Positions 22,767 through 47,373 of a stretch of DNA of 64,000 nucleotides are shown one piece after another. Source of the DNA: Bacteroidota bacterium. GTDB lineage: Bacteria; Bacteroidota; Bacteroidia; Bacteroidales; Prolixibacteraceae. Made by a program: the position numbers and the translations under genes. The stretch is from the NCBI GenBank assembly GCA_024278975.1, contig JAJRSD010000113.1, forward strand, positions 1 through 64,000, given 5' to 3'. Each line of letters begins with the position of its first letter. The stretch's first letter is position 1. A model generated the notes under the pieces. The model was not told the DNA's origin, did no database searches, and saw only the letters and a program-made list of their open reading frames with translations.

Positions 22767-24269
22767 TTAATAGAGCTGTTCGTGGCAATCGGTGCATAAC
22801 ATCTCTTTCCATGCCTCGTCGATATCAACCGGGTGTTTAAATTCCAATGGATCTTCGAGGTTCGAATATTCCATCGACAAAGTAGTCCCCTGAGCAATAA
22901 TTGAATGACACAAATTACAGTCTCTCGAAATTGTCTTTCCATTCTCCGCTATGTGCGTATCGTTATGGCAACGGTAGCAACCCTCTGTTTCAAGATGCCC
23001 CAGAAAGTTGGGGTACTCGCTCCATTTTACACCCATCTCAGGAAAAAAGTTTTTCGAATATCCTTCCTGAATGCTTGCTATTGCATCCTCAATTTCCTGT
23101 TTTTTTGATTGTAACAGGTCAGGATAGTTTTCTTGGTAGTAGGTTTTTACCTGATAGTCGATAGCAATAAAAGCACTGTCGGTTGTGGGATAGTCTTTGT
23201 TAAGTATATCCATCGAAACCAATTTAATGTATGGTAAATCTACAGAAATGGATCCGGCTACGATAAATTCATCGATAATATTTTGAGGTATTTTGTAGTT
23301 GTGCGATGGTCGGTTGTGGCAATCTAAACAATCCATAGTTCTCATATCCAGCGAGTCGATTTCGTTTTGTGAAAGTTTCTGATCGGCATCTTCGAAAATA
23401 TTAACCTCTCCGGTTTTCAGGTTTGTGTACCGTACCCATGGTATTTTTTTTCTCTTGGCATCAACAGCAATGTATTCAATTTTAATATCGGGGTGAATGT
23501 GCCGGTGGATACCTTCGGTAATACCGAGAGCGGTGTGGTCGGAGCTGGTTTTCATCAACATCTGGATGTCGTGCTCAGTATTGGCTTCATCAGAAAGATA
23601 GGAACGTTTAATTTTTAACTTTCTGTCGTAAAACTTCTCCGGCCAGTGGCACTGCTCGCAGGTTTGTTGTGCCGGGCGTAAGTTATGAATTGGAGTTGGA
23701 ATAGGTGTTGGGTATTTCTTCGCCAACACAGAATAAACCTGATATAACCCCGAGAGTTTACTTTTTACGTACCAATCAGCTCCGGTTCCAACGTGGCACT
23801 CAACACAAGATACACGTTCGTGAGAAGATCCCTGGTATGCTACATATTCAGGCTCCATTACAGTATGACAAAGTTTTCCGCAAAATTCTACCGACTCGGT
23901 AATATGAAAAGCCTCGTAACTACCAACTGCTGAAAAAATTAAAAGTACTATTGTTCCTGCTGCAAAAATAACAGATGCATTTCTTGTCCCCGGATTATTA
24001 AAATCGATTAATGGCCAATCTTTTGTTCCCGAGGTATCTCCCTGCTTTTTTAATTTACGTTTGGTCAAATACATACCAACGGGAATTAGTATAAGTCCGG
24101 TAATCAAAAAAGCCGGTAATATCATATAAATAAACAGCCCGATATAAGAACTTCCTATATCGAAAATAAAAGTGACTAATAGTAAAAAAATGATAAATAT
24201 AAAATTCATTATAGCAATGGCTGCTCCAATAATGGAGGTCCAGTTTCGTAGATTTTTTGGTAGTTTCAT
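22767..24269 (-). CDS. NapC/NirT-type heptahaem membrane cytochrome c
   Basis: A 500-residue inner-membrane cytochrome with three hydrophobic segments (about 11-34, 42-68 and 98-116) and a periplasmic haem domain. The first haem motif is CX3CH (CGKLCH at about 130) followed by HTVMEPEYVAYQGSSH, which matches the first-haem region of NapC/NrfH proteins. Six CxxCH motifs follow (CVECH, CEQCH, CLDCH, CYRCH, CNLCH, CTDCH), so seven haems are predicted. NapC-type proteins oxidise menaquinol and pass electrons to periplasmic partners. It is the last gene of the cytochrome block, 69 bases after ccsBA. A distinct terminal reductase is not present. Confidence 0.88.
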   Translation of the reverse strand: MKLPKNLRNWTSIIGAAIAIMNFIFIIFLLLVTFIFDIGSSYIGLFIYMILPAFLITGLILIPVGMYLTKRKLKKQGDTSGTKDWPLIDFNNPGTRNASVIFAAGTIVLLIFSAVGSYEAFHITESVEFCGKLCHTVMEPEYVAYQGSSHERVSCVECHVGTGADWYVKSKLSGLYQVYSVLAKKYPTPIPTPIHNLRPAQQTCEQCHWPEKFYDRKLKIKRSYLSDEANTEHDIQMLMKTSSDHTALGITEGIHRHIHPDIKIEYIAVDAKRKKIPWVRYTNLKTGEVNIFEDADQKLSQNEIDSLDMRTMDCLDCHNRPSHNYKIPQNIIDEFIVAGSISVDLPYIKLVSMDILNKDYPTTDSAFIAIDYQVKTYYQENYPDLLQSKKQEIEDAIASIQEGYSKNFFPEMGVKWSEYPNFLGHLETEGCYRCHNDTHIAENGKTISRDCNLCHSIIAQGTTLSMEYSNLEDPLEFKHPVDIDEAWKEMLCTDCHEQLY

Positions 24270-24338
24270 AAGTTGAAAGTTTTTTTATTGAGTTACATAT
24301 ACAAGTAGATAAAATAATTTTGAAAGTGAACTTTAGTT

Positions 24339-27300
24339 TTAGTCATTGTCGGGTGGTAATAGATCAGGTTCGGTAGCATCGCCATAATTTCGTTTTGTAA
24401 TAAAGGCCGAAACAACCACAATTAGTATTACAACTACAGCAATATATACACCGGCGGGAATTGGCACCGAGTCGCCGGAAGCGTATGAATGAAGTCCTGA
24501 CAGGTAATAATTTACACCGAAATAGGTCATTAATACCGAACTGAAACCGAGAAGTGCCGCTGTACTGAGAGCAAAATATCCCTTAAATCCGGGGATTTTG
24601 TGCATGTGAACGATAAACGAATAAACCAAAACGGTTACAAGTGCCCATGTCTCTTTTGGATCCCAGCCCCAGTACCTGCCCCACGATTCGTTGGCCCAGA
24701 TACCGCCAATGAAAGAACCGATTGTGAGCATATAAAGTCCAATTATCAAAGCAATCTGGATAATGTATTCCAACTCTTTGATAGTGTAAGAAATTTGCCC
24801 CTTGTTTTTTTTGTTCCTTAAAAGAATGAGAAGGAGGTTCGTAAAGCCAAGGAGTGCGCCAATTCCAAGAAACCCGTAACTTGCTGTTACAATGGCAACA
24901 TGAACGATAAGCCAGTACGATTTTAGTACCGGCACTAAGTTGGTAATCTCCGGACTCATCCAACTCAGCCCGGCAATTAGTAGTGTTAAAGCCGATAAAA
25001 CTGTTGTAACAGCAAGTGCCATTTGCGAGCGTTTTGCAAATATCAGACCCGATAAACAGGTTGCCCAACTAATAAAAATCATCGACTCGTAACCGTTGCT
25101 CCAGGGTGCATGACCCGAAATGTACCACCGAAGTCCTAATCCTAAGGTATGTAAAAAGAATAGGATAAATACTAAAATAGTACCAATATCAATAACCTTT
25201 TTGAGCTTCACCTCGGGTTTGAAGATAGAAATAAAAACCACCAGCAATAATATAAGCCCTACAATTAGGTAGAATTTGGCAAGCCTTCCGAAGATGTTAT
25301 AATTGATATAAAAAATTTCGAGGTTTATTTTTGTCTGCGAAGGTACAACTGCACTGCCGTAAATTAATTGGTTGTTCTTTAGTTTAACCAATAAATTGTT
25401 TGCACCGCTCCAGTCGCCGGAGTGTTTTGCACTGTTAACCGCAGCAAAATAATCTGATAATGTCCGGGTAGCAAACTCCCTGTTTTCTGTGGGCAACTTA
25501 TGTTCTGAATTTTTCAGGAATATCCACGAGTTATTTGTTTCATCGGGAATAGGGAATATTTTTAGCATCTCTCCGGAAAGCACGAGATAGCATATATTCA
25601 CCCGTTCGTCAATTTTAATAATCTCTTTGTCCGACTTGTTTCTTGCGGCTGATTTTTTTCCATAAGCCTGTTCAACCAACTTCGATAGTTTGTAGCCACC
25701 TGTCATTAGGTCGTCGAACGAGGCATAATCTCCGGTTATTCCCAGCATCATTTTTATTTCGGGTCTCGAGACTTTTATTAGTTTTACGCCTCTCCATTTT
25801 TGTGGGTCGGCATTCATCCCTAAGAATACTTCAACCGGCGATAATCCTTCAAAACTGTTCTTTTTGTAAACTTTTCTCAATATCTCGGAAGCCACGGAGT
25901 TCACCGGTTCAATCCGGCCTTCGTTACTTTGAATCAGTAATTTTCCAAATTCCCGGGCATGGGTTTTATCAATGGTTCCGGTAGGCGAAGGTGCTTGAGC
26001 ATTTGAAATGCCGGAGATTCCAAGAAATAGAAATAGAACTAAAATCTTGCTTCGCTGTGCTTTTAGTTTTGTAGATGCCTTGATTAATTTTCGAAATCTG
26101 CTATTCCGGTTGAAAAGAGAAAACACCATTCCGGCTATCATCAGGAAATAACCGAGGTAGGTAATTGTTGTTCCCCACGAGTCGTAATTAACCGACAGGA
26201 TTGTCCCTTTTTCATCCTGATCGTACGACGATTGGAAGAATCGGTAACCCTTGTATTTTAATATATTATTCATAAATATGCGGAACGGCATTTCGGTATT
26301 TGCAATTTTGTCGATTAAAACCACATCGCTGGCAAAAGAGGAAGGACTGTGCGATCCGGGGTAACGTTCGAGATCAAAATCTTTTAAGAAGAGAGAAAAG
26401 GGCAGCTTTGTCAATACAGAACCGTACGTTACCGACACGTTCAGGTTATTAACTGTTGTCGAACTCGGTTGCCCTGCCAATCCTTTAAGTCCAAACACAT
26501 TGATAATTTTGGTTTCACCGTCAACTGTTATTTTTGCCCGGAATGCGTCGTGTACCCGACCTTTGTTTTCAGGATTATGAATGAGACGAGTACTCCCATT
26601 TGCAATATATTGTTTCAACGCAAAACTTGTATGGCCAATCTGGTAAATGATTTCCTGATTTAGCGGAAACTCTTCGCCGAGGGGCAGAGTGGTTCGCTCA
26701 GATCCCATTTTGCCTGCCGAAAGCTCTCCTTTTAATGCATTAATAACCAGTCCGCTACTACCTTCACTAATCAAAATAGTCGTAAATTCCGACGGGTTAT
26801 CAAAACTGAAAACAATACCGTTAAAATTCTTAACTTCCCCTTTTTCCAAAATTAGCTCCTGTCGATTTTGATGCTCAAGTACAATCATCGAAATAATTGC
26901 CGAGCCGTTTTTATCTTCAACAATTGTTCTTGTTGCCGAAGGGATAAATTGAATGTTTTCAACTTTTATCGTCCTGTTTTTAAAGCTAATTTTTTCTTTA
27001 TACCTGTTTTTAGTGTTCCCCGAAAACTTAACATCTTTCATTTTCGATACGGTATCCTGTCCATCGGTAACAACCACGTTAATATAGGTTCCGTTTGAAA
27101 GGATTTCGTCGGAAGTTTCTCCTTCACGAATGTGTATTGAACCTTCTGTTCCAACATATCTGGTTACTCCGGCCCCAATAAAAATAATTATAAAAGAGAC
27201 GTGAAATACGATCATACTCCACCGTTTCCCGGAAATCATATTGTTTGTAAACAGACTCCCAATCAGGTTTATTACCGTTAATAAGAGTAATCCTTCGAAC

Positions 27301-27446
27301 CACTTTGAATTATAAACTAATATTTTGGCAGTGGTAGTTCCAAAATCATTTTCAATAAATGTGGCATAGCCAATTGAAATGCCAAAAACAACCAGCAGCA
27401 AGCCGGTAAATGGCATAGAAAACAGATATCTCAATATTTTTCTCAT
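24339..27446 (-). CDS. ccsBA: CcsBA (ResB-ResC fusion) cytochrome c haem lyase
   Basis: A 1035-residue inner-membrane protein that attaches haem covalently to CxxCH motifs in the periplasm (system II). The ATG at 27446 (MRKILRYLF) is preferred to an earlier TTG. The ResB half (about 1-460) begins with transmembrane helices and a large periplasmic region. A second hydrophobic stretch ending GISNAQ near 475 leads a periplasmic insert typical of Bacteroidota. The ResC/CcsA half (about 740-1010) has the haem-handling tryptophan-rich motif WGRYWGWDPKETWAL and flanking His residues. It has its own upstream spacer after a terminator-like hairpin. Its place among nine multiheme genes fits its role in maturing them. 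Confidence 0.93.
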   Translation of the reverse strand: MRKILRYLFSMPFTGLLLVVFGISIGYATFIENDFGTTTAKILVYNSKWFEGLLLLTVINLIGSLFTNNMISGKRWSMIVFHVSFIIIFIGAGVTRYVGTEGSIHIREGETSDEILSNGTYINVVVTDGQDTVSKMKDVKFSGNTKNRYKEKISFKNRTIKVENIQFIPSATRTIVEDKNGSAIISMIVLEHQNRQELILEKGEVKNFNGIVFSFDNPSEFTTILISEGSSGLVINALKGELSAGKMGSERTTLPLGEEFPLNQEIIYQIGHTSFALKQYIANGSTRLIHNPENKGRVHDAFRAKITVDGETKIINVFGLKGLAGQPSSTTVNNLNVSVTYGSVLTKLPFSLFLKDFDLERYPGSHSPSSFASDVVLIDKIANTEMPFRIFMNNILKYKGYRFFQSSYDQDEKGTILSVNYDSWGTTITYLGYFLMIAGMVFSLFNRNSRFRKLIKASTKLKAQRSKILVLFLFLGISGISNAQAPSPTGTIDKTHAREFGKLLIQSNEGRIEPVNSVASEILRKVYKKNSFEGLSPVEVFLGMNADPQKWRGVKLIKVSRPEIKMMLGITGDYASFDDLMTGGYKLSKLVEQAYGKKSAARNKSDKEIIKIDERVNICYLVLSGEMLKIFPIPDETNNSWIFLKNSEHKLPTENREFATRTLSDYFAAVNSAKHSGDWSGANNLLVKLKNNQLIYGSAVVPSQTKINLEIFYINYNIFGRLAKFYLIVGLILLLVVFISIFKPEVKLKKVIDIGTILVFILFFLHTLGLGLRWYISGHAPWSNGYESMIFISWATCLSGLIFAKRSQMALAVTTVLSALTLLIAGLSWMSPEITNLVPVLKSYWLIVHVAIVTASYGFLGIGALLGFTNLLLILLRNKKNKGQISYTIKELEYIIQIALIIGLYMLTIGSFIGGIWANESWGRYWGWDPKETWALVTVLVYSFIVHMHKIPGFKGYFALSTAALLGFSSVLMTYFGVNYYLSGLHSYASGDSVPIPAGVYIAVVVILIVVVSAFITKRNYGDATEPDLLPPDND

Positions 27447-27530
27447 AATAAACAGGTGTTGAATTCCCGGAATATCCGACAATATAAATGCTAATATAAA
27501 ATAGGGGAGTGCGAAGTATGGATAAAAAAA

Positions 27531-27587: not shown

Positions 27588-28076
27588 TTATTTTGCGGGA
27601 TTCGGATGTGCAATTTTTGCCGAATACTCTTTAAAGTTGAACCCTTTGTAATTGGGGCTCTCCTCGTTGTGGCAAGTTTTACAAACTTTCTCGTCGGGTA
27701 AAATTAATCCGTTTGCAAGGCTCTTCTCCTGGCTCAGCATAATTGTTTTTTTCTTGTACATGCTGCCCGGTCCGTGGCACGATTCGCACGATACTCCCTC
27801 GGCGGCAGTAAGTGTTGCTATTAAACCAGCATCAACTGCAGCAGCAGTAGAATGACATTTTAGACACTTCGGATCTTTGGCTTCGTCGCCTTTTAAAGAT
27901 TCCATTGCTTTGGCGTGAGGTCCGTCGAGCCACGCCTTGTATTGCGCACCTTTGTCTGCCTTGTTGTGGCACATTTTACACTTGCTTGCTCCAATGTATT
28001 TGAAGTCCTGAGCAGTTACTGTAGTACAGATAAAAATAGCCATACTCAATAAAATCATAATCTTTTTTCGGTTCAT
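27588..28076 (-). CDS. Tetrahaem cytochrome c, c554-like
   Basis: A 162-residue periplasmic cytochrome. The ATG at 28076 begins the signal peptide (MNRKKIMILLSMAIFICTTVTAQ). The mature part has four haem motifs: CKMCH, CLKCH, CESCH followed by GPGS, and CKTCH. The order and the GVSCESCHGPGS block match the cytochrome c554-like fold, in which haems form packed pairs for periplasmic electron transfer. The second and third haems are separated by the typical AAEG linker. It is isolated by a hairpin terminator from ccsBA downstream and by 154 bases from the 15-haem gene upstream, so it may be transcribed alone. Confidence 0.9.
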   Translation of the reverse strand: MNRKKIMILLSMAIFICTTVTAQDFKYIGASKCKMCHNKADKGAQYKAWLDGPHAKAMESLKGDEAKDPKCLKCHSTAAAVDAGLIATLTAAEGVSCESCHGPGSMYKKKTIMLSQEKSLANGLILPDEKVCKTCHNEESPNYKGFNFKEYSAKIAHPNPAK

Positions 28077-28230
28077 AGTTGTTGTTTTTAAATGAATAAT
28101 AATTAAAAAATAGTTATTGGTTTTAGACAAATGTTTAAATAAAAAAAATCAAATCTGGTTATAAAAATATCAGGTATAAAAGTGCACTTTTTTTTTCTTT
28201 TCACAAAGGAAAAAAAACTCTATTTTCAAG

Positions 28231-29517
28231 TTATCGGATGTATTCTTTATTGGCATGACAACCCGTGTTGCAACTGCCACCGTTCTTTTCTACTTTAAAT
28301 AGTAACGGCATTTCCCAATCGCCAAAACGGATACTGCTACTAATTAGATGTTCCGACGGTGCTCCGTGCACATTGTGGCACAAATTGCAGTTTCGCGCTT
28401 TTTCGCCGTTCATGTGTAAGTAGTGAAGATTTTGATCGCCGTTACGGAAATTGGTAGCTGTTGAACTTGTTGCTGTTTCCAGTAATTCGGTGTCGTGGCA
28501 GTTGAAACAGAGCTCAAAATTTTCGACTTTCGCGCTGGTATATTGCCCTTCAGGGAATACACCGTTTAACAATAAATGTTCGTTTGAAGCGTGTGGAGCG
28601 TGGCAAACAACGCAACCATCGTCTTCAATAACACCGTGTATAAAGTTGCCCTTTTTTAAAAGTTGCCCAATATTGCTCAACGTTTTTGTTTCGGTTTTTA
28701 TGGTTTTGCTATGGCAACTCAGGCAGAGCTTTTTCTCTTCGTCGATTAAAAACATTCGTTGGTTCGATGCGTGTGCCGAATGACAATTTGCACACCCTTT
28801 TTCATCGTTTATCACTTTGTGCACCACTTTGGCGTTGGTAAGTGTCGATTGTATGTCGTGACAATTATCGCAAAGCACCGGTAGTTTTTCAATCAGTAAA
28901 TTATCCTCTTCCGTACTGTGTGGCGCGTGGCAGTTGGCGCAGTCGTCGTCGAACGGAGGATGGATGTTTTTTAGTTTGGTTTCCATTTGTACCGAGGTGT
29001 GGCAATCGAGACAGAGTGCCGGCTTCTCTTTTTTCAACATATACGAATTGTCCGACTGGTGCGGATCGTGGCAGCTTGCACAATTGCCGTCGGCTGCGGG
29101 TTGGTGTTTTACACGCTTTTCGGTGATGTCGGTATCGTGGCACTCGAAACATAATGTCGACTGTGGCGCGCTGATGAGCAATGCTTTATTGTTGCTGCCA
29201 TGTGGCGAGTGGCACATTAAACATTCGCCCTCTTCGGCAGGCGGATGAATATTTTTCTTTGAATATTCGTCGTGGCACATAAAGCATAAATCGGGCATTT
29301 TCTCTCCCAGCTCAAACCCTTTCACATTCTCTTGCGGATGTTCTTTGCCATTTGCGTTGTGACAGTTCTCACAATCGTCTTCGGCAGGAGCGTGCAATGT
29401 TTTGTATTCGATGTACGTGGTGTGGCAATCGGTGCAACTCTTCTCTTCGGTTTGTGCCACAGCAGTTGAACTAAGGAAGAAGAATAAGATAAATTGTGTA
29501 ATAGTTCGTTTTTTCAT
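28231..29517 (-). CDS. Pentadecahaem (15-haem) cytochrome c
   Basis: A 428-residue exported cytochrome. The start is placed at the ATG at 29517, giving a signal peptide ending SSTAVAQ. I count fourteen CxxCH motifs plus a C-terminal CX3CH (CNTGCH), about one haem per 27 residues. Many are in the doubled CxxCH arrangement with conserved DPH, APH or SPH after the motif and an HPP or HQP histidine between pairs. That is typical of periplasmic or extracellular haem wires. It lies between the tetrahaem gene and the beta-barrel gene. A physical partnership with the barrel is inferred from order only. Confidence 0.9.
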   Translation of the reverse strand: MKKRTITQFILFFFLSSTAVAQTEEKSCTDCHTTYIEYKTLHAPAEDDCENCHNANGKEHPQENVKGFELGEKMPDLCFMCHDEYSKKNIHPPAEEGECLMCHSPHGSNNKALLISAPQSTLCFECHDTDITEKRVKHQPAADGNCASCHDPHQSDNSYMLKKEKPALCLDCHTSVQMETKLKNIHPPFDDDCANCHAPHSTEEDNLLIEKLPVLCDNCHDIQSTLTNAKVVHKVINDEKGCANCHSAHASNQRMFLIDEEKKLCLSCHSKTIKTETKTLSNIGQLLKKGNFIHGVIEDDGCVVCHAPHASNEHLLLNGVFPEGQYTSAKVENFELCFNCHDTELLETATSSTATNFRNGDQNLHYLHMNGEKARNCNLCHNVHGAPSEHLISSSIRFGDWEMPLLFKVEKNGGSCNTGCHANKEYIR

Positions 29518-29657
29518 TTTTTTATAATTTTTTACCGCAAAGTCGCTGAGACGCAAAGAGAAAATAATTATTCTTAAACTTATTTCGATGCAGCCCGCTT
29601 AAAGTAATCATCTTGTATGCAAATTTTTTTATATGCTCTTTTCATAATTCCGGTTAT

Positions 29658-31607
29658 TTAAAATTTTCTGGCTATTTGCAGGTAAACACTATTAAAATCG
29701 GTATCGTCGCCGAGGTAGTTGCGGCGGTAGAATTCAACTCCGGCAGTAATGTAAATTTGCCTGATAATAGTTGTGAATTCGCTGCTTGCTCTTAATAGAT
29801 CGAGGTCTATCTCCGGTCCTCTCTGTTGGCGGTAACTCATAATAAAGTCGATTTTGGTAGTTGCATTAAACTGGTAGGCTGTCGATCCCGAGAGGTCGGA
29901 ATATTTCCGGTTTATATTTTCGTCCACCATATCGTAATCTCTGATATTGCCATTTACCGAGAACGTAAATTTCTTGATCCTTTTTTGGATGTTCAGAAAA
30001 TACCTCATCATTTTATATGGGGTAACAGTGCTGTTTTGGTCTTCGTATTCGGCACCAATTTCAACAAAACCAACCTTAATTTTACTTCCATAAATATTTT
30101 GGTTGATGTAGTTCAAAATCAACAAATCCGATTTCTCAATGTTGTTGTAGTCCATAAAATGACCCTGATAGTATAACTCTAAGAAACGGTTAAAAAGAGT
30201 GATGATCGCGTTGAACCGGTTCGAAATGGCATCGTATTTATACGATCCCTCCTGCACTGCAACATAATCGACAAACACAAACGAGTTGTTCTCAATCTGT
30301 CCGCCGGGTACGCGTTGAATTTCGGTGTAAGCCCCTTTTTCAATTAGTATGTAATCGAAATCGCGCTGGTAAATTATTGTGCCGGTACCATCTTTTACTA
30401 CTATGGTTGCCATACTGATATAGGGTTTCGCCAGGGTTGTTATTTCACCGTCGATAAGTCTTACCGCTTCATTGAAAATGGGGATTGTAACCGTTTCGTT
30501 GTCCATGGAATTTCGCAATAACGAGTAGTTGTATGCGAGGTTTAAGTTTCCGGTGGGGATTTTTTTTGTATAGATAAACTCGAAGCCGGTCTGGGTTCTT
30601 GTTTCGAGATAAAGCGAGTGGTTAATCACTGAATAGTCGTAATAAATCCGGCTGCTCAGGCTCGAAAAAAGCTGATGGCTTAAACTTGTATTTATCTTAT
30701 TTTGGTTCGAAAGCTGGGCTTGCTGCTGGTGGTTATATAAATTGTAGGTAGTTCGGAACCTGAAATTGCGGGGCAGTTCGAAATTGAGGCTTTCGGTGGC
30801 ATTGAAAGTGTGGTACGCCTGATCGCCTTTCCGGTTGTAGTCGTATATAAACGAGCGGAAAGAGTACCTTTTATCTTTATCGAAAAAGAGGCTGTTGGTA
30901 AGGTTGAAATTGTCGGTTGTGTTTTGTATCTCAAAAGAGTTGGCGTCGCGCCTGAAGTATTTATTGTGCGAATAGGTTAGTTCGTTGCGGTCGTTTTTCG
31001 AGAACGATTTTAGTGTTGATACTTCAAAGTTCTCCTGCTCGGTTTTAAAGCTCCGGTCGTTCTCTATCTCAAGCTGATCCCATTTTAAGTTGTTGTAACG
31101 AACATTCACCGGAAGGAATTTTGTTCTTATATAGAGCGAGCTTCCCCACCTGACGGTGTTTGTTTTTATGTTGGTCAGGTTTTCGCGGTTGCTGTAGTTT
31201 TCGCTTAAATTGTAGAACGAGCTTAAAGTAACTGCTTTGTTGCTAAAAAGTTTTGCCCCGAGGTTTAGTGCCTTTAGGGTGCGCACCTCCGAACGGTCGG
31301 GGGTAATCAGGTAATCGTCGAGATCGGTACCGGGACTATATTCGCCCCCGATATCGAGGATCAGAAAATTGGGGTGATAGATGTAACTTTGTGTGTTAAG
31401 TTTCATGCCTCCCGAAAAATAGGTGCTCTTTTGGAATTCGTAAAAATCGTTTATTGTGGTGTGCTTCTCACGGTAAAATCCCTTTACGTTTAGTTCCCCG
31501 TCTAACGAAGTAAACCTCCAAAATGCGGGCTCGAACTCACCGTTTTGCGAATAACCAGCAAAAGGCAGGAGGAGTAAAAGGCAATATTTTAGGATTTTTG
31601 TTTTCAA
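29658..31607 (-). CDS. Outer-membrane beta-barrel, candidate cytochrome porin
   Basis: A 649-residue exported protein with a signal peptide (cleaved after LPFAGYSQ) and repeated amphipathic strands with alternating aromatic residues over the whole length. It ends in aromatic YLQIARKF, as outer-membrane barrels do. I see no TonB plug or haem motif. The only plausible start is a TTG at 31607. The length and strand density resemble the MtrB/PioB/OmbB class of barrels that sheathe multihaem cytochromes, but the sequence alone does not show homology. It lies between the 15-haem gene and a 9-haem lipoprotein gene, which is the reason for proposing a conduit role. Confidence 0.65.
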   Translation of the reverse strand: MKTKILKYCLLLLLPFAGYSQNGEFEPAFWRFTSLDGELNVKGFYREKHTTINDFYEFQKSTYFSGGMKLNTQSYIYHPNFLILDIGGEYSPGTDLDDYLITPDRSEVRTLKALNLGAKLFSNKAVTLSSFYNLSENYSNRENLTNIKTNTVRWGSSLYIRTKFLPVNVRYNNLKWDQLEIENDRSFKTEQENFEVSTLKSFSKNDRNELTYSHNKYFRRDANSFEIQNTTDNFNLTNSLFFDKDKRYSFRSFIYDYNRKGDQAYHTFNATESLNFELPRNFRFRTTYNLYNHQQQAQLSNQNKINTSLSHQLFSSLSSRIYYDYSVINHSLYLETRTQTGFEFIYTKKIPTGNLNLAYNYSLLRNSMDNETVTIPIFNEAVRLIDGEITTLAKPYISMATIVVKDGTGTIIYQRDFDYILIEKGAYTEIQRVPGGQIENNSFVFVDYVAVQEGSYKYDAISNRFNAIITLFNRFLELYYQGHFMDYNNIEKSDLLILNYINQNIYGSKIKVGFVEIGAEYEDQNSTVTPYKMMRYFLNIQKRIKKFTFSVNGNIRDYDMVDENINRKYSDLSGSTAYQFNATTKIDFIMSYRQQRGPEIDLDLLRASSEFTTIIRQIYITAGVEFYRRNYLGDDTDFNSVYLQIARKF

Positions 31608-33705: not shown

Positions 33706-33849
33706 AAAATTACTGTTTATTGTAAAAATAGGATTTATATTAATTGGGCAATGCAACTGCCCGTAATTTTTTAAATAAACCCATTTTTGAGCCCACTTCT
33801 CCAAAAAGTAAAAAAATGAACTTTTAGTCATCTGATGACTTGGTGTCGA

Positions 33850-34230: not shown

Positions 34231-34258
34231 TACTTGACCTGACAGTTGTACCCTTTCA

Positions 34259-34290
34259 ACAAAAAAAAGGCGATTTTGCAATCGCCTTTA
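34259..34290 (-). terminator. Rho-independent terminator
   Basis: Stem GGCGATT/AATCGCC with a 4-base loop, followed on the minus strand by eight T. It lies 20 bases after the stop of the tetrahaem gene 34310-34933. Confidence 0.88.
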
Positions 34291-34933: not shown

Positions 34934-34978
34934 AATATTTAATTTTAAATGTTTATTTTAATCTTCCGCCCATTGTTT

Positions 34979-35232: not shown

Positions 35233-35274
35233 TGGGTGATTTGCCCCATGGGTTATTGGGTGATTTGCCCCATT
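35233..35274. promoter_or_regulatory. Paired 16-base direct repeats, candidate activator sites
   Basis: GGGTGATTTGCCCCAT occurs exactly at 35234-35249 and again at 35258-35273, 24 bases apart. Each copy is an imperfect dyad (TGGG...CCCA). Their position about 270-305 bases upstream of the predicted sigma-54 start is what upstream activating sequences of NtrC-type regulators look like. Binding by the adjacent regulator is inference. Confidence 0.45.
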
Positions 35275-38203: not shown

Positions 38204-38245
38204 AAGTAAATATTTTAGTTTAAATCTAATAATCAATTGTTTGCA

Positions 38246-38332
38246 ACTCACCCTCTTCTCCCTCTCTTCGCGAAGAGAGGGACGATAATTTGGTGGACAG
38301 ATTTATCTGACTGCTAAATTATCAGGGTGAGT
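38246..38332. repeat. Fold-back element between cytochrome and kinase genes
   Basis: The ends ACTCACCCT (38246-38254) and AGGGTGAGT (38324-38332) are exact inverted repeats. Inside is a perfect 22-base palindrome at 38260-38281 centred on TTCGCGAA. There is no T run. It covers part of the 160-base spacer between the 12-haem gene stop and the kinase start. Confidence 0.65.
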
Positions 38333-40054: not shown

Positions 40055-40055
40055 T

Positions 40056-41093
40056 TTATTCGTTTTCTGAAACTTTAAAAACCTGAACGCGCGAGTTGTA
40101 GCTGTCGGCAACATAAATAAAGTCGTTTTTATCGATGTATAAACCTACCGGAAGCGTAAACTCCCCGGATCCAATTCCTTTTTTGCCTATAATTTCCAGC
40201 AACCTTCCTTCTTTGTTAAAAACCTGAATGTTATGGAAAAGTGCGTCGGCGACGTAAATGTTTCCGAAAGAGTCGGTCGCAATCCCTTTTGGCCGGGCAA
40301 AATTCCCTGAACTGTTTCCTGCTTCACCAAATGCTGAAATAAAATTTCCCGCCTTGTCAAACATCTGAACCCTAAAATTCATCGTGTCGATTACATAAAC
40401 TATACCCATTTTATCAATCCAGATAAATGTTGGGTAATTAAACTGTCCCGGTGCATTGCCTCTTGTTCCAATCCGTTTAATTAATTCTCCGTTTTTATTT
40501 AAAATTGTTATTCGGTGCGCGTTGGTTTCAATAATCCAAATCTGTTGGTTTATAGTAGAATAGGCTATTCCCGTGGGGGAGTTTAATATGAGAGTATCGT
40601 TTAATACCGCCAATAGTTTGTCGTTTTGAGAATAGATAAAAACCTTGTTTAATTTAGAATCAGTAAAAAGAATTTTCCGATCGTAAAAGAGGCAGTTACC
40701 TATTAGCGATGGGAAAACAGCATGTTTATTATTTTTGAATTGGGTCATATCACCCACCCCGTTTTCAACGTTGAAAAGTATGCCATTTCCCTGATCCAAT
40801 ATCAACATTGAATCGGGTTTAAACCCAATTACCGAAATTGGGCGATTAAGATTGGGTGCTGCTTTCCCAAAAATCAAATCGGAAAACCAGTTTTTTTTGA
40901 ATGTATTTTCGGGGAACAGATTTACAAACCAGTTATTGTCCTTTTTTTCTTGTTTTATTATTGTGGGAAACTGTCCTGCATATTCAATTGAAAAATATTT
41001 CTCTTGATTTTGGGCAGGGGAGTTAAATGAAAGAGATATTAAAAACACCAAACAGCCACCTATCTTAAACAATTTCAACATTCTTTTTCGCAT
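40056..41093 (-). CDS. NHL-repeat six-bladed beta-propeller, exported
   Basis: A 345-residue protein with a signal peptide ending SLSFNSPAQ. Residues 80-340 hold propeller blades with the NHL pattern: SPTGIAYSTINQQIWIIET, NYPTFIWIDKMGIVYVIDTM, ARPKGIATDSFGNIYVADAL and TLPVGLYIDKNDFIYVADSY, with RVQMF or NIQVFNKEG between them. It has no lipobox, unlike the NHL lipoprotein at 32635-33705. It is placed directly before the 12-haem gene, with a 1-base gap. NHL proteins recur beside multihaem conduits in other phyla and may organise them; the function here is unproven. Confidence 0.87.
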   Translation of the reverse strand: MRKRMLKLFKIGGCLVFLISLSFNSPAQNQEKYFSIEYAGQFPTIIKQEKKDNNWFVNLFPENTFKKNWFSDLIFGKAAPNLNRPISVIGFKPDSMLILDQGNGILFNVENGVGDMTQFKNNKHAVFPSLIGNCLFYDRKILFTDSKLNKVFIYSQNDKLLAVLNDTLILNSPTGIAYSTINQQIWIIETNAHRITILNKNGELIKRIGTRGNAPGQFNYPTFIWIDKMGIVYVIDTMNFRVQMFDKAGNFISAFGEAGNSSGNFARPKGIATDSFGNIYVADALFHNIQVFNKEGRLLEIIGKKGIGSGEFTLPVGLYIDKNDFIYVADSYNSRVQVFKVSENE

Positions 41094-41180: not shown

Positions 41181-41882
41181 CTATTGCTCAATGCGGCTAT
41201 CTTCCATTATTATTTCAAAAAAGTACCCGGAGCCAAAATCTTTATTCAGCACTATTTTCCCTTCAATTGTAATAATGTCGCCGGTTTTAGTTTCATCAAC
41301 CGAAGTTGCAGTAAAATCGAAATTTCCTGAGCTACTTGTGCCATCTTGCAGGTGAATCCAGTTTTTGCCCATAATCCTACTGTTGTATTTTGTTACCCTG
41401 CCTCGTATTTTTACTGTTTTATTTTTATATTTTTCTTTATTGTTATACAACTCGGCAATGGTAATTCCTCCTTTTGCCTGTTCAACTTTCATGTTGATTT
41501 TTTTATCAATAGTTTTCGATTTTTGTGGCGACATGTTTAACGAGGTTTTTCCTCCCTCGGCAAAATCGGGGCTAATAACGCCATTCAAAAAGAGGACAGA
41601 GGCAAATGTCCGGTTTAACTCTTTACTTTTAAAATCCTTCATCTCCATTCCTCCCTGATAGTAGTATGTGTCTCCTTTTTTTGCTTCCATTTTCGGAATT
41701 GCGAGCCACTGTAAACTGTCGTTTTCTTCAACATAAAGATAGGTGTATGAAGTTGTTTGTAATACTTCTTCAACTTTAATTTTGTGTACGTTAGGATGGT
41801 TTTTATTGAAGTCGGGGTTGTTTTGCGCAAGGCCCGGTAACAATAAAATAACGAGAGCGGTAATTGTAAGAATGAATTTCAT
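41181..41882 (-). CDS. Exported OB-fold protein associated with multihaem cytochromes
   Basis: A 233-residue protein with a signal peptide (MKFILTITALVILLLPGLAQ). The N-terminal half has YLYVEENDSLQWLAIPKMEAKKGDTYYYQGG. The C-terminal half has TIAELYNNKEKYKNKTVKIRGRV, then WIHLQDGT and GDIITIEGKI, which is an OB-fold (tRNA_anti-like) strand order. Such periplasmic OB-fold proteins, sometimes likened to NrfJ, occur beside cytochrome operons in several phyla, possibly as haem or assembly factors. The role is unknown. It sits 41 bases after the 19-haem/cytochrome b gene and before the NHL gene. Confidence 0.6.
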   Translation of the reverse strand: MKFILTITALVILLLPGLAQNNPDFNKNHPNVHKIKVEEVLQTTSYTYLYVEENDSLQWLAIPKMEAKKGDTYYYQGGMEMKDFKSKELNRTFASVLFLNGVISPDFAEGGKTSLNMSPQKSKTIDKKINMKVEQAKGGITIAELYNNKEKYKNKTVKIRGRVTKYNSRIMGKNWIHLQDGTSSSGNFDFTATSVDETKTGDIITIEGKIVLNKDFGSGYFFEIIMEDSRIEQ

Positions 41883-41923: not shown

Positions 41924-44743
41924 TTAGTGCGTAAGTAGTGAGTAAATAATTAAAATAACCAAAACAATTCCCACAAACAGGAACATAAAACCAAATGTTT
42001 TTACAAATCTTATTTTTTGTTTCGAGTAATCTTTTTCAACCACAACCGATTCTAATTTTCCCGATTTCTCGAGTTTTTCAAATTCGCGGGGTCTGTCGTC
42101 TTTGTACTCTTCGTATGGCACATGCCCGGTAAAAATAACGGTATCCATTGGGAACGATTCCGGTCGCAGGTGAGTATTAAAAAAGTGAATGGTAAAAATA
42201 AATCCAACGGCGAGCAACGCTTCGTCGCTGTGTATTATTTGTGCTACATTAATTACCCAGCCGGGCAGGAACATGGTGAAAAATTCGGGAAACCATAGAA
42301 TTAATCCGGTGGAGCCAATAACAATTACCCCCCAGAAAACTGCCATGTAATCAAATTTTTCCCAATAGGTCCAACGTCCATACTCAGGGCGCGGTCCTTT
42401 CCAGACAAACCATTTTATTGTTGCCCAGAAATCGCGAATATCCTGACGGTTAAACATAAGTGAGTTGCTGCCAAATATAAAGGAGCTGAACTTAACTTTT
42501 TTCTTGACTTTAATACGAATTAAATTGTACAGATGATAACCAAAATAGCCAAAGGTTATTACTGCTGCAAACCTGTGAATTGTCCCGGCAGCCTGACCTC
42601 CGCCTATAAGTTTTGCTAATGCTTGTGCCCAGTCCATGTACGCAAATTTTAATATCATCCCGGTTAAAGCCAGTAGTAAAAAGCTTACAATCACGAAAAT
42701 ATGTGTAATCCGGTTACTTCTTGAAAAACGGCGGATGTATATTTGTTTGCCGGTTTTGTGCAAATGCTTTTTCTTTTTGTTGTTGCGCATGGCAGTTATC
42801 GAGCGGGGAATCCATAGCAGGGTGTGCAGTCCGAAAAATACAAATACACTGATTAACAATCCGGTCATTGCCCAGAAAGTATAGTATAACCATGGGAATT
42901 TACTTTTGTTGTAGTGCGTTGCATGTGTGAGGTAGCCGGTGAATTTCATATTGGCATCGGCATGGCATTTCTGGCAGGTTTGAACAATGTTTTTTGCACT
43001 TATTGTTGAATTTATATTGTCCATTTTCAGGATTTTGTGTGCTCCGTGGCAATCGGAGCAGCGGGCTGCTTCGAGGTAGCCAAGCTGGTACACTTTGCCG
43101 TGGTAGGTTTCCATGTATGTGTCGGCTAAATCGCCATGGCATTTCCCACACTGCATGGTTATTTCCGACATGAATTTGTCTTCGTGAACTTCGGAAATTG
43201 CATGGGCACTGTGGCAAGTGCCACAGGTGGGATATTTTAAATCGCCTTCGTCGGGACGGTAGGCATGGTCGCTTTCAATGTATTCATCGTAAATACCTTT
43301 GTGGCAATTTCCACAGGTAGCTGCAATATTTTTGGGATTCACCGACGAACGGTCGTCGGACTCTTTTAACATGAAATGTGTGGTATGGCAATCGGTGCAA
43401 ATGGCGGTTGAAAGCAGTCCTTTTTCGTTCAGGCTTTTGCCATGCACACTTGTCGAGTAATCGTGAAAAGCGTCAACTTCACCGAGGTCGGTTCCTTCAA
43501 CTGCTTTGCCGTCTTTTTTATGACACTCGCCACAAAGCTCCGGAATTGCCGACCTGAAAACAGGCGATGTTTCGTCTTTTTTATATTTTACGAGATGAGT
43601 TCCATGGCAATCGGTACAGTAGGGTGCATTTTCGTGTTTACTAAAGTAAGCTTGTCCGTGGCCACTCGAGAAGTAGATGTCGGCTTCTTCGGCATGGCAA
43701 CTTGAGCAATCTACCGTTCCTGCCGATTCGCACGGACGATCCAGGCTTGCAGTAACATCTGAATGACATTTCACGCAGGTAATATTCTTATGAGCAGAAA
43801 CAGCAAGATCGGTAACATCAACGCTTAACGAAATCTCTTCGTTATTTTTAATCATGTGAATGTTTTCATCGTCATGGCATTTTAAGCAGGTTTTGTCTGT
43901 AATGGTGGCGATAATATTTTTCATCTCAACTTTATGTGGAGGATGACAGGCGGAACAGGCAGGAATGGCTCCGGGTTTCTCTTCCCAAAGCTCCTTGTTG
44001 ATTACCTTAACGTGTACATCTTCAATACGGGCATGGCATTTCATGCAGGTAGTGGCAATGTTCTTCTGCGAAATGCTCGATTTCATATTTGTGTGTGGCA
44101 GCACAAGGTGGTTGCCGTGGCAATCGTTGCAGGTAGCTGTTACAACCAAACCGCTGCTAAACAATCCTTTCCCGTGAATACCCTGACTGTAGTTTTCGAG
44201 AATATTATGCTCCGAGATATTGTATGATCTCGAAACCGCTTCACCTTCTTTATGGCACGAACCACATAAAACCGGAATGTTCATTTTATATGTTCTCGAA
44301 TCCGGATTACTCGATTCAATAATGTCGTGGGTGCCATGGCACTCTTTACAATCGGGAGCATTTTTATCGTTGGCTTGATAAGCCCGTCCGTGTACTCCCC
44401 TTAAAAAATTTAACTGGGCATCTTCATGGCAAATTCCACAGTCAACGGGTTTTAAGATTTCGGGGTGCGGATAATCTTCAACAACCGCATCGACATGGCA
44501 CGCACCACACAAAACATTTTTATGAATTGATTTGTCGAGAGCGTGGGGTGGGATGTACCGTGAAAGTGTTCTTCCATTTCGTATGGTGTTCAAATCAGGA
44601 TCATCGTGGCACATAAAACAGTCATCGTTGTCTTGTGCCGAAGAGATTAGCGGCAGGAGCGATACTATCAGCAAAAAGAGAAACTGCTGAAATTTTGATA
44701 AATAGCTTTTGGGTTGAAAAACGGAAAAAGTTGTACGTAACAT
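41924..44743 (-). CDS. 19-haem cytochrome c fused to membrane cytochrome b
   Basis: A 939-residue inner-membrane protein. After a signal peptide (about residues 18-37), residues 40-620 hold nineteen CxxCH motifs in repeated blocks: CxxCHGTHDI or CHGTHLV, then LCG-CHK(E/K)-G, then [11 protein letters not shown] or [11 protein letters not shown], then NIA-TC--CH. The repeats imply internal duplication. From about 640 there are several helices with cytochrome b561/formate dehydrogenase gamma-like features: spaced His in [21 protein letters not shown] and [32 protein letters not shown]. This b-plus-c architecture is that of Geobacter CbcL-type quinol oxidoreductases, with more haems. It likely moves electrons from menaquinol to periplasmic cytochromes (inference). 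Confidence 0.9.
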
Positions 44744-44789: not shown

Positions 44790-45407
44790 TTAGTAGTGCC
44801 AGCCAGTTACAATACTTTTAAAATTGTTTATTGGCGATTTGCCAATTGTTGAAACATAAATGTGTATCAATAAAAATATGGATAGAATAAATCCGGTGGC
44901 AGCGTGGGTTAATGCTGTTAACGATATTCCACTCACCGAATAAACACTTTCAATAATTGTTTCAGGAAAAAGCAGTGCAAGCCCGGTAATAATTATTACC
45001 GGAACAAAAATATACATTATTAAAAGGTATGAATATTTTTGAAGCGGGTTGAATTTTCTTTTCTCGGAGATAGGGAATGGCGTTTTTTGCCCGGTAAACA
45101 TTCCAAAAGCGTAATATTTCGCCTGTTTCACAATCCTCTTTGTACATCCCTTAGGTTTTATCCGGTAGTATTTTTTGTTTCCCAAAAACATATTCCCAAA
45201 GAAAAACAGTAGATAGTTTATTGAAACAATCACGCCGGCAACATTGTGCATATTAATTGCCGATTCGAAATTAATAAACGAAAGCGAGCCTTTTGAAAAC
45301 TGCAAATTGAGTCCCGATACAATTAAAATCAGAATTCCAATGGCATTTATTGCATGCCATATTCTTAACCAAACTGGGTATAGATATATTTTTTCTTTTA
45401 TTGACAT
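44790..45407 (-). CDS. Cytochrome b/b561-type membrane subunit
   Basis: A 205-residue inner-membrane protein with four hydrophobic helices (about 15-35, 50-72, 115-140 and 160-185) and His residues placed to bind b haem: LRIWHAINAIGILILIVSGL, INMHNVAGVIVSINYLLFF, LTHAATGFILSIFLLIHIYVS. This is the pattern of the di-haem cytochrome b subunits of formate dehydrogenase, hydrogenase and thiosulfate reductase. It lies between the 7-haem gene (6 bases) and the 19-haem/cytochrome b fusion (46 bases). It could be the quinone-reactive partner of the 7-haem protein (inference). Confidence 0.87.
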   Translation of the reverse strand: MSIKEKIYLYPVWLRIWHAINAIGILILIVSGLNLQFSKGSLSFINFESAINMHNVAGVIVSINYLLFFFGNMFLGNKKYYRIKPKGCTKRIVKQAKYYAFGMFTGQKTPFPISEKRKFNPLQKYSYLLIMYIFVPVIIITGLALLFPETIIESVYSVSGISLTALTHAATGFILSIFLLIHIYVSTIGKSPINNFKSIVTGWHY

Positions 45408-45413: not shown

Positions 45414-46349
45414 TTATTTTTTTATTATTCTAAAAATCAGGTGAATGGAAATTCCCACAAGGGTAGCAATAAAAATTATAAGGCTCAGAAGATTTAATAT
45501 TGGGTTCTGGTAGGCGCCAATTACGTATGAACTGTTAGATATTATGGAATTAAATGTACCATCTTCGGATCGCGCCTGAATATTTTTGTATTTGTACAGC
45601 GAAGCTTGCAGCATTGAGTTTGCCGAATGGCATTCGACACACAATTTAAGTGCATCCTCTTTCTTACGTATGTTATGCGATACATTTAAAGAGTCAGCCA
45701 CAATTGTGTGGCACTCGATGCAGCGCACATGCTCGAAATGCAGTGCCTGATTAGGAAGCCAGTCGTGAACCTGTACCAACTGAGGGTTTTGATTCTCCGA
45801 TACCAACTGGTATTTAATCATGTTGTTGTGGCACGAGAAACACATGTCGTTACTGAATTTAACAATTTCTTTGATGTTGTCGCTGTTACGGGCTGTTGCC
45901 TTGTAGTAATGCTGATTATGGCACTTTGAACAGGTAAACTGCCCGTCGGAAATTTTGAAATGGACACTCTTTTTAAATTCATCCTCAATCCGTTCAAACT
46001 GATACGATGCGTAAGTTTCGTCTCCGCCGTGGCAGTCGATACAGGTCATTAGTTGTTCCAGTTTCAGGTCGCCATTGTGCGGGTAGGTTTCGTATTCGTA
46101 CGAATGGCAATCGGTACAGCTAAAAGAGTGATGAACTCCTGTTTTTATCTGAACAGTGTCGAGTATGTAGAGGGGGTTCATAAGCCTTCGTTGATTGTGC
46201 TCTGTTAGCTTGTTAAAAATTGTAAAGGATTGCGATGAGTGGCACTTTAAACAGTGCTTGTTGTCGTCGGGAATTGTTTGAGATTGTACAGGTAGGTACA
46301 ATAATCCCAGCAAAACAACAAAAGTTAGGTTGCGGAAAGTTGCAGACAT
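45414..46349 (-). CDS. Heptahaem cytochrome c with C-terminal membrane anchor
   Basis: A 311-residue protein. The ATG at 46349 begins a signal peptide (MSATFRNLTFVVLLGLLYLPVQSQ). Seven CxxCH motifs follow (CLKCH, CTDCH, CIDCH, CSKCH, CFSCH, CIECH, CVECH), and extra His residues in between are possible distal ligands. A single hydrophobic helix near the end (NLLSLIIFIATLVGISIHLIFRII) should hold it in the inner membrane facing the periplasm. The cytochrome b gene starts 6 bases downstream, so the two probably form a membrane quinol-to-cytochrome unit. The spacer to the pentahaem gene is about 67 bases. Confidence 0.9.
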   Translation of the reverse strand: MSATFRNLTFVVLLGLLYLPVQSQTIPDDNKHCLKCHSSQSFTIFNKLTEHNQRRLMNPLYILDTVQIKTGVHHSFSCTDCHSYEYETYPHNGDLKLEQLMTCIDCHGGDETYASYQFERIEDEFKKSVHFKISDGQFTCSKCHNQHYYKATARNSDNIKEIVKFSNDMCFSCHNNMIKYQLVSENQNPQLVQVHDWLPNQALHFEHVRCIECHTIVADSLNVSHNIRKKEDALKLCVECHSANSMLQASLYKYKNIQARSEDGTFNSIISNSSYVIGAYQNPILNLLSLIIFIATLVGISIHLIFRIIKK

Positions 46350-46416
46350 GGTTTTATAAAATTTAAACTGAAAGTTAAAAGTAACTATCAATGGTTAATA
46401 TATCAGTTGAACGGTT

Positions 46417-47373
46417 TCAGGAGCTAAATATAATAATTTTTATGAAACTTTGCTTAATTATTTTTATCCTTTCGCTTATTAACAGCAACCCTTTTTCGTT
46501 AATAATTTCAAAGATATTTGCCTTGGTTTTAATCAATTCCGATGCCGTATATTTCTTCTGCTTATGGGTATCAGTATCAGGATGAGACCATTTATATATT
46601 TTACTATCTTCAGGATTGTCCTTATTAATATATTTTGCACTGTTTAATGAATTATAAGCATTGTCGGCAGTCAAATCAGGAGTTTGCCCTCCATTTCCAT
46701 GACAAGAAGTACAATTGTTATTTTTCGTAAAAATTGGAATAATATCTTGTGAGAAGCTAATCTTAGGTGTATCCGGATCTTCAGGATCGGTTGGTGGCAC
46801 CTCTTCCGGAATCAGAAAATTGTACGTACACCCACTAAAATTTGTTCCTTCGCTTTCGCCCATGTGGCAACCTACACAACCTACTTTTTTGTGAATTCCC
46901 ATTACCGTACCGGGAGAGTCAGTGTAACCACCAACTCCAAAAATATTGTTTGTCATTGTAGTATAATGTGGTCCTGCATAAGGGCTTGATACCCAAACAC
47001 TATCTTCGTGAACAACAAAATCAACGGTTCCATCGTCATTCCATACTGTGTCAACCGAAGAGTATGCAGTTCCGTTGCTTCTTGCCTGATGACAATTAGC
47101 ACAAGTATTGGAGCTACTTTCAAAATCGAAAACTGTAACACCGTCGGCCAAAGCGAGTATAGCATCATCTGTTCGCATTGGGGCGGAGAGACCTGCTTTT
47201 AAACTAACGTGATTACCATGACACGTGCCGCAAGTAATTTTAGAAGCAAAATCAAGATTGCTTTCCGGGTCGTATCCGATTACATGGTATTCAAAACCTT
47301 CGTTAGAGTGACATTGCATACAACCCGCTCTTACACCGGCATATCCCAATTCAAAACCGGGAGAACCGTGCAT
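46417..47373 (-). CDS. Pentahaem cytochrome c, 5' end apparently lost
   Basis: A 318-residue reading frame with five CxxCH motifs (CMQCH, CGTCH, CANCH, CVGCH, CTSCH). The last third resembles the single-haem module ISFSQDIIPIFTKNNNCTSCHGNG seen at the ends of secreted cytochromes. From the ATG at 47373 there is no signal peptide. Yet the in-frame codons just upstream (47374-47418) read LVWILLLFGASYASS, which looks like the end of one. A TGA at 47419-47421 and the absence of a start codon cut it off. The gene is therefore truncated, mutated or mis-assembled at its 5' end. The C-terminus (LLLISERIKIIKQSF) is also unlike the usual ending. It is the first gene of the cytochrome block. Confidence 0.75.
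   Translation of the reverse strand: MHGSPGFELGYAGVRAGCMQCHSNEGFEYHVIGYDPESNLDFASKITCGTCHGNHVSLKAGLSAPMRTDDAILALADGVTVFDFESSSNTCANCHQARSNGTAYSSVDTVWNDDGTVDFVVHEDSVWVSSPYAGPHYTTMTNNIFGVGGYTDSPGTVMGIHKKVGCVGCHMGESEGTNFSGCTYNFLIPEEVPPTDPEDPDTPKISFSQDIIPIFTKNNNCTSCHGNGGQTPDLTADNAYNSLNSAKYINKDNPEDSKIYKWSHPDTDTHKQKKYTASELIKTKANIFEIINEKGLLLISERIKIIKQSFIKIIIFSS

Follow-up and report, generated by a model that had tools for sequence, protein, structure and literature searches.

What does a Bacteroidota bacterium (family Prolixibacteraceae) do with nine multihaem cytochrome genes set side by side? The genes, all on the minus strand, occupy positions 22767-47373 of contig JAJRSD010000113.1 (assembly GCA_024278975.1), the first 64,000 nucleotides (nt) of which form the window analysed here. 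Counted in order of position, they carry 6+1, 4, 14+1, 9, 4, 11+1, 19, 7 and 5 haem motifs, 82 in all when CX3-4CH is allowed, which is exactly what the original prediction, made from the DNA alone, had claimed of gene number, motifs and orientation. Strict CXXCH was found 79 times in the nine genes and once in a histidine kinase, giving 80 in the block versus 0.46 expected from residue shuffles, and no haem motif was found among 30 other open reading frames (ORFs) of at least 100 amino acids (aa) outside the block. We consider it fairly probable that the block encodes an extracellular electron transfer (EET) system ending in an OmcE-type polymerising cytochrome. This reading is supported by homology, ligand conservation, gene-order conservation, a predicted barrel and a conserved DNA switch.

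Two genes of the block are related to a known filament subunit, as judged by searches of the Protein Data Bank (PDB):

34310..34933, minus strand: omcE4, a 4-haem OmcE-type filament cytochrome of 207 aa with a signal peptide (PDB 9yuq and 7tfs)
38363..40114, minus strand: a 12-haem cytochrome of 583 aa, with an N-terminal OmcE-type domain plus eight haems (PDB 7tfs, Pfam)

The omcE4 product matched the OmcE filament of Geobacter sulfurreducens (7tfs) with E = 1.3e-22 over residues 6-207 of 207, a full-length homology; its best match was 9yuq (1.1e-25), an entry listed only as a putative multihaem cytochrome. It shares with OmcE the signal peptide, the four CXXCH motifs and the four distal histidines, and all eight ligand histidines were invariant in 37 of 37 hand-chosen relatives (25 from the 80 loci described below, the window and 11 further genome rows; alignment A3). 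Across a wider set of 90 homologues of 190-250 aa, each ligand position was histidine in 81 to 90. The 12-haem protein, whose true start is probably near 40054, matched 7tfs with E = 3.1e-31 across residues 20-226, while its C-terminal part scored 54.4 bits (cut-off 30) with the Pfam MtrC/MtrF domain II/IV model over residues 377-529, a match that may rest on the CXXCH motifs. Exactly 12 haems were found in 44 of 46 homologues of 520-720 aa, and each OmcE histidine was retained in 45 or 46 of the 46. OmcS was not matched by either protein in the PDB up to E = 1.

OmcE-type filaments are extracellular and polymerise through an inter-subunit histidine ligand (PMC12954529; papers are cited by PubMed Central number, and statements about their content refer to the parts consulted), and homologues of OmcE are said to be spread over bacteria and archaea (PMC12307469). 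The present system, whose polymerisation is predicted, differs from that of G. sulfurreducens in belonging to a Bacteroidota genome and in having, beside the filament gene in one locus, a barrel, a 12-haem protein with a filament domain and a switch made of haem kinase and sigma-54 activator. The same genome holds a second OmcE-like 4-haem gene (L023:11760-12368, equivalent to G000:C36:159760-160368), which lies approximately 3.5 kb from a contig end, lacks the histidine after its first haem motif and has no other haem-motif gene in the 15.9 kb around it. Six loci (L030, L042, L045, L071, L081 and L106) contain at least two OmcE4-like genes, some with five haem motifs, and it is possible that such loci form alternative or mixed filaments.

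How electrons might reach such a filament is suggested by five further genes:

29658..31607, minus strand: outer-membrane barrel of an unnamed family, 649 aa, about 28 long strands (AlphaFold and Foldseek)
31798..32625, minus strand: 9-haem MtrA-like cytochrome, probable lipoprotein with lipobox IIAC (PDB 6r2q_A, 3.2e-16)
28231..29556, minus strand: 15-haem doubled-CXXCH cytochrome, MtrA/DmsE-like (PDB 6r2q_A, Mtr complex, 1.9e-14)
32635..33831, minus strand: NHL propeller 2 (NHL2), probable lipoprotein, true start probably internal, near 33705 (Pfam NHL, 2.5e-10)
40056..41093, minus strand: NHL propeller 1 (NHL1; Pfam NHL, 4.8e-24)

The AlphaFold model of the barrel (predicted local distance difference test, pLDDT, 89.7; predicted template modelling score, pTM, 0.69) contains 28-30 strands of about 11 residues or more by DSSP; MtrB presumably has about 26. 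By strand count, at about 28, the model is unlike a standard porin of 16-18. The barrel called in the original prediction is thus predicted as a barrel here too, though the protein had no Pfam or NCBIfam match at E<=0.01. Among the 50 Foldseek PDB rows listed, the highest template modelling (TM) score by query length was 0.43, to MtrB of Shewanella (6r2q_B), with the others at 0.24-0.35; the modelled length of MtrB is equal, at 649. Pilus ushers were also among the fold matches. Membership of the MtrB/PioB families was ruled out by Pfam, NCBIfam and profile search, and the family is unnamed in the sense of the curated models and the MtrB search, with the sequences of OetI, OmbB, ExtB/E and ExtI outside the comparison. 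The barrel alignment (A2) was hand-chosen and comprised 43 of 54 listed barrels of 600-730 aa, the window, L022 and L024.

For the 9-haem and the 15-haem protein alike, PDB searches placed 6r2q_A first; we take this chain to be MtrA, the molecule name in the sequence table being wrong for an entry titled 'Structure of the Mtr complex'. In the MtrA/DmsE-type test the DmsE-family score was 152.7 versus a cut-off of 192.2. Of the homologues searched with a lipobox pattern, 30 of 43 for the 9-haem protein and 41 of 62 for NHL2 carry one. An outer-membrane electron conduit is probably the right reading of the block, as the original prediction had proposed.

Do conduit and filament genes recur together? 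Scanning genome contigs yielded at least 484 relatives, of which the best 80 loci were kept, so that gene-order percentages favour close relatives; some loci are short. The order omcE4, NHL2, 9-haem lipoprotein, barrel recurs contiguously in 37 of the 80. A 9-haem homologue stands directly before 41 of 59 barrels, with an NHL gene there instead in 13, a 15-haem homologue directly follows 31 of 59, and in 42 of 45 cases the 12-haem gene stands behind an NHL1 homologue. Homologues were found per 80 loci for OmcE4 (69), NHL2 (65), the barrel (60), the 12-haem protein (55), NHL1 (51), the 15-haem protein (46) and the 9-haem protein (45), followed by the genes introduced below: the activator (27), kinase (24), CcsBA (12), 19-haem (11), 233-aa (10), 4-haem (6), 7-haem (2), b-type (1) and NapC-type (1) proteins. 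These counts indicate that an outer-membrane core recurs and that the inner-membrane modules vary.

The 80 loci come from Bacteroidota groups, Calditrichota, Chlorobiota, Ignavibacteria and KSB1, and also from Gamma- and Betaproteobacteria, Desulfobacterota groups, Sumerlaeota, Omnitrophota, Verrucomicrobia and Holophagae. Metagenome assemblies account for 78, and two belong to named strains: Carboxylicivirga marina N1Y132, with kinase and activator, and Aestuariivivens marinum MT3-5-12, without both in the stretch compared. The cassette is rare and patchy, because few matches were found in either of two samples. Among 61 near relatives, omcE4 occurred in three genomes, all of the genus to which the window belongs and one with a partial match, and the barrel in two. 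In a phylum sample of 395 genomes, OmcE was found at E<=1e-15 in at least six and a full-length barrel in at least two; at most three (barrel) and seven (OmcE) candidates were scored per genome, so absences are not tight. The barrel profile matched 11 of the 395 at E<=0.001; in nine the match spanned no more than 63-118 of 651 positions, and the remaining two were counted.

In the barrel tree the window groups with G012 (support 100/100) within a set of 22 rows comprising 17 Bacteroidota, three Chlorobiota and two unassigned (99/99). The changes needed number one each for Pseudomonadota and Thermodesulfobacteriota, five for Bacteroidota, three for Calditrichota and two each for Chlorobiota and Ignavibacteriota; the tree is only partly coherent by phylum and so speaks clearly for neither descent nor transfer. 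GC content is 0.39-0.42 in the block and 0.36-0.39 in the flanks, a weak argument for recent transfer.

A Desulfobacterota-type sample gave matches to profile A1 at E<=0.001 in 78 of 198 genomes, many across only one or two haem motifs. We examined ten stretches around OmcE-type genes, from at least seven such genomes, and found a barrel at 20-22% identity in three (L141, L142 and L144). Three stretches that we take as Geobacter-like (L137, L138 and L140) carry a CcsB-like gene, 8-haem and 10-11-haem MtrA-like genes, NHL and OmcE in a row, preceded in L138 and L140 by a small 3-haem gene; there OmcE has NHL and MtrA-like neighbours, as omcE4 does.

Is omcE4 controlled as a unit of its own? Between it and the 12-haem gene lie two regulatory genes, and DNA elements flank its coding region:

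36716..38251, minus strand: histidine kinase with one CXXCH (Pfam HisKA, HATPase_c, HAMP)
35349..36719, minus strand: NtrC-type response regulator with receiver, sigma-54 AAA+ and Fis helix-turn-helix domains (Pfam Sigma54_activat, 7.4e-69; Response_reg; HTH_8)
35257..35272, no strand assigned: operator copy 2, exact TGGG-N8-CCCA, 24 nt from copy 1 (motif scan)
35233..35248, no strand assigned: operator copy 1, exact TGGG-N8-CCCA (motif scan)
34978..34993, minus strand: sigma-54 (-24/-12) promoter, TGGCACACATGTTGTA, 10 of 11 positions, starting 60 nt before the omcE4 ATG
34266..34289, minus strand: intrinsic terminator after omcE4 (terminator prediction)

By our own reading of the sequence, the kinase CXXCH sits between two membrane stretches; the Mcp40H-20_sensor model matched this protein at 4.5e-4, below its cut-off. 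The kinase and activator genes overlap by 4 bases. One CXXCH was found in 16 of 19 kinase homologues, the activator followed the haem kinase in 17 of 17 cases, and omcE4 followed the activator in 16 of 19.

The exact form TGGCACN5TTGYW occurs once in the window versus 0.14 expected, which is weak alone. In the comparison across loci, which includes the window, promoters scoring at least 9 of 11 were found between activator and omcE4 in 13 of 18 regions versus 0.36 expected from shuffles that kept dinucleotides, and at -100 to -35 in 11 of 18 versus 0.05. As a control, such scores occurred upstream of 15 of 433 genes without a window homologue in the same loci. TGGG-N8-CCCA sites of at least 7 of 8 were present in 16 of 18 regions versus 0.31 expected, and pairs 22-24 nt apart in 12 of 18 versus 0.0; the promoter and operator sets differ by one region (L049 versus L029). 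For operators and terminators the shuffles kept base composition only, and the operator expectation is optimistic, the motif having been derived from the same regions. Only pairs are specific, as the 1.23 Mb of the 80 loci contain 374 single 7/8 sites. At a spacing of 20-26 nt this DNA yielded 16 listed pairs in 14 loci, and read by eye 15 of the 16 stand behind the activator or before an omcE4-type gene, the other preceding NHL1 in L032. Two pairs share a site in L030, the omcE4 of L034 is hidden by an overlapping ORF, and in L071 the pair is flanked by two omcE4-type genes. Of 16 regions, 11 have a terminator behind omcE4, versus 0.04 expected. With an NtrC-type activator, a -24/-12 promoter, upstream sites and RpoN, which is encoded in the genome, the features of a sigma-54 unit are all present, and in loci with kinase and activator omcE4 probably forms a sigma-54 unit of its own that the haem kinase controls.

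The conduit read from the block in the original prediction is consistent with the barrel and MtrA-like evidence, and neither outcome that would have spoken against it was seen, a recognised soluble reductase gene in the block or a barrel model of 16-18 strands; that account had overlooked the OmcE-type filament cytochromes (4-haem and 12-haem) and missed the haem kinase, the sigma-54 activator, the operators, the promoter and the terminator.

A third exact TGGG-N8-CCCA lies at 40741-40756, within the NHL1 coding region, and may reflect chance or a second control point. Between omcE4 and NHL2, at 33900-34213, are two 107-nt copies, 91% alike and 207 nt apart, with 22-nt inverted arms nearby; a 125-aa ORF at 33904-34281 spans this intergenic repeat and was rejected as a gene. 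Directly upstream of the block, at 47475-48206, is a Crp-family regulator that could possibly exert a second control of the block. No Rfam RNA was found in the window at gathering scores.

What could feed the conduit? The rest of the block consists of the following:

22767..24269, minus strand: NapC/NirT (NrfH)-type 7-haem cytochrome, candidate inner-membrane quinol oxidase (Pfam PF03264, 2.8e-10)
24339..27482, minus strand: CcsBA (ResB-CcsB fusion) system II haem lyase (PF01578, 1.4e-39; PF05140, 6.5e-23)
27588..28130, minus strand: 4-haem cytochrome c554-like protein, candidate periplasmic carrier (PF13435, 1.9e-14)
41181..41882, minus strand: exported 233-aa protein of unknown family (no Pfam family at E<=0.01)
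41924..44743, minus strand: 19-haem cytochrome fused to an FdnI-like b-type cytochrome, candidate quinol oxidase (PF01292, 8.8e-8)
44790..45407, minus strand: b-type cytochrome, cytochrome b561 family (PF01292, 2.9e-25)
45414..46391, minus strand: 7-haem cytochrome with a C-terminal membrane stretch (motif count; homologue adjoins a b-type cytochrome in L038)
46417..47373, minus strand: 5-haem ORF that looks 5'-truncated, probably the remnant of a gene (neither a signal peptide nor a plausible start region)

The NapC-type protein matched the NrfH model at 4.1e-13, below cut-off, and had no PDB match at E<=0.01. Compared by build only, it has the features of an ImcH/NapC quinol oxidase, a NapC/NirT domain and seven (6+1) haem motifs; the build of ImcH we take to be a NapC/NirT domain with seven haems. 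Likewise by build only, the 19-haem protein, with 19 CXXCH fused to a b-type membrane domain, is of the CbcL type, which we assume to be a fusion of a multihaem c domain with such a membrane domain. It scored 53.8 bits (cut-off 30) with the MtrC/MtrF domain II/IV model, which may rest on CXXCH motifs, and matched TIGR01583 at 4.2e-10, below cut-off. The 5-haem ORF had no other match at E<=0.001 in a genome search and resembles the 3' portion of a cytochrome gene that was otherwise lost.

Several gene calls of the original prediction held in Pfam, namely the CcsBA haem lyase (ResB and Cytochrom_C_asm), the two b-type membrane domains, one of them fused to the 19-haem protein (Ni_hydr_CYTB in both), and the two NHL proteins; the OB-fold label given to the 233-aa protein found no such backing. 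PADLOC assigned no defence role to the 233-aa protein or the barrel.

Known systems share parts of this arrangement. In PDB searches the 9- and 15-haem proteins come closest to the MtrCAB complex of Shewanella (6r2q), which also gives the barrel its highest listed TM score; the MtrC/MtrF domain model matches the 12- and 19-haem proteins above cut-off, perhaps through their CXXCH motifs. In contrast, the barrel falls outside the MtrB/PioB families, and the OmcA/MtrC decahaem model was far below cut-off in ten proteins scanned. The OetABI and OmcX/OmcS systems of syntrophic sulfate reducers also place a porin, a periplasmic cytochrome and a cytochrome lipoprotein beside putative filament cytochromes, and conduit and filaments are proposed to act in concert there (PMC10553843). 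Their filament cytochrome is OmcS-like, OmcS being a hexahaem protein, whereas ours is OmcE-type with four haems and no 6-haem gene was found in the block by the relaxed count; the terms 'NHL' and 'beta-propeller' are absent from the main text of PMC10553843, and of these proteins the sequence comparison covered OmcS. In the related Ignavibacteria, porin-cytochrome clusters from which conduits were inferred (PMC7399161, PMC4245776) are described as OmbB-like or MtrB-like, and 'NHL' occurs in neither main text and 'OmcE' not in that of PMC4245776. The original prediction had supposed an undescribed system. Such clusters and OmcE homologues had already been reported, while the cassette and its switch were not found described in a literature search that covered only part of the key literature; the consulted parts of PMC9473688, PMC12133095, PMC13374861 and PMC11976967 held nothing on the cassette.

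Together, these comparisons suggest a route that we infer, as we do polymerisation, membrane topology, docking and the direction of electron flow. The quinol pool would feed the NapC-type 7-haem module and the 19-haem/b-type fusion with the b-type and 7-haem proteins, and these modules would pass electrons to the periplasmic 4- and 15-haem cytochromes. From there electrons would enter an outer-membrane conduit made of the barrel and MtrA-like cytochromes (the 9-haem lipoprotein and perhaps the 15-haem protein), topped by NHL lipoproteins. Beyond these, the 12-haem protein would attach through its filament domain to a filament built from omcE4 subunits. The haem kinase would sense redox state, and its NtrC-type partner would bind the paired TGGG-N8-CCCA sites and fire the sigma-54 promoter of omcE4, the transcript ending at its own terminator. 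Outward flow is likelier, given that the modules of the inner membrane look like quinol oxidases.

The main competing explanation is that the barrel, the NHL proteins and the 12-haem protein form a secretion or assembly machine for the OmcE-type subunit, with electrons crossing the outer membrane elsewhere. It draws on the tighter linkage of NHL than of barrel genes to OmcE (in 73 versus 60 of the 80 loci), on the pilus ushers among the fold matches, and on an eight-gene Geobacter block reportedly tied to OmcS maturation and secretion (PMC12977616). An export channel, however, needs no MtrA-like cytochromes of the kind found directly before 41 and after 31 of the 59 barrels, and we regard this explanation as unlikely. 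We also think it unlikely that the locus is a conduit whose omcE4 product acts as a monomeric surface or shuttle cytochrome. Sequence alone cannot reveal polymerisation, and several loci have two or more OmcE4-like genes; against this, the 37 chosen relatives retain all eight ligand histidines, among them the N-terminal one, and omcE4 has its own switch and terminator, as expected for an abundant subunit. Lower still is the probability that we assign to electron uptake from minerals or a partner cell: conduits can run in both directions and the genome's NrfA could consume the electrons, but nothing seen in the block points to uptake, and NapC- and CbcL-type modules are usually quinol oxidases. 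Service to a soluble periplasmic reductase of nitrite or sulfur compounds was rejected as very improbable, since Pfam and NCBIfam recognised no reductase gene in the block, NrfA (absent from the window, as the original prediction had it) is encoded elsewhere in the genome, at G000:C4, and a large barrel and OmcE homology would be superfluous for such an enzyme.

Several observations weigh against an EET system with an OmcE-type filament, the basis for which is sequence, gene order and predicted structure. The omcE4 model was too poor to interpret (pLDDT 58.7), although 7tfs, its sole PDB match, favours the OmcE reading. MtrB ranked only 19th by Foldseek E-value for the barrel, after TonB receptors and LptD, and at a TM score of only 0.43; a scan of 46 barrel members gave no MtrB or other conduit family among the matches, and a search of the PDB with the barrel profile missed MtrB even at E<=10. 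Nor is the barrel obligatory, being absent from six of the ten OmcE stretches (L135-L140), the three Geobacter-like ones included, and replaced in L143 by an unmatched 781-aa ORF. In the switch, three of 19 kinase homologues lack a haem motif, the operator site is missing in two of 18 regions, and a promoter of 9/11 is absent in five of 18, including that of the isolate C. marina at 7/11. Sequence models are moreover said to resolve too little for true OmcS nanowires to be recognised in other genera (PMC12977616), and a triple filament-cytochrome mutant of G. sulfurreducens still reduced Fe(III) oxide (PMC11077965). Deletion of omcE in that species impaired ferrihydrite reduction and had little effect on anodes (PMC10597711), and OmcE reportedly polymerises also where no EET is needed (PMC10954620); in view of these last three reports the role of cytochrome filaments is disputed.

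With an OmcE-type filament at the end of the conduit, the 12-haem protein would occupy a particular place. We suggest tentatively that it is the junction, its OmcE-type domain capping or seeding the filament by inter-subunit haem ligation and the eight haems of its MtrC/MtrF-like part linking to the barrel conduit, and that the cassette would be a genetically complete 'socket and wire' unit that occurs in several phyla, with a haem-sensing sigma-54 switch in its Bacteroidota-Calditrichota-Chlorobiota part. If true, this would explain how a cytochrome filament plugs into the cell. Filament subunit, filament-domain adaptor and conduit come together in this recurring locus, joined in part of its range by a regulator, and deletions in the named strains could then show whether wire, socket and switch are parts of one system. 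In that case the paired TGGG-N8-CCCA sites, with the sigma-54 promoter, would also provide a searchable DNA signature.

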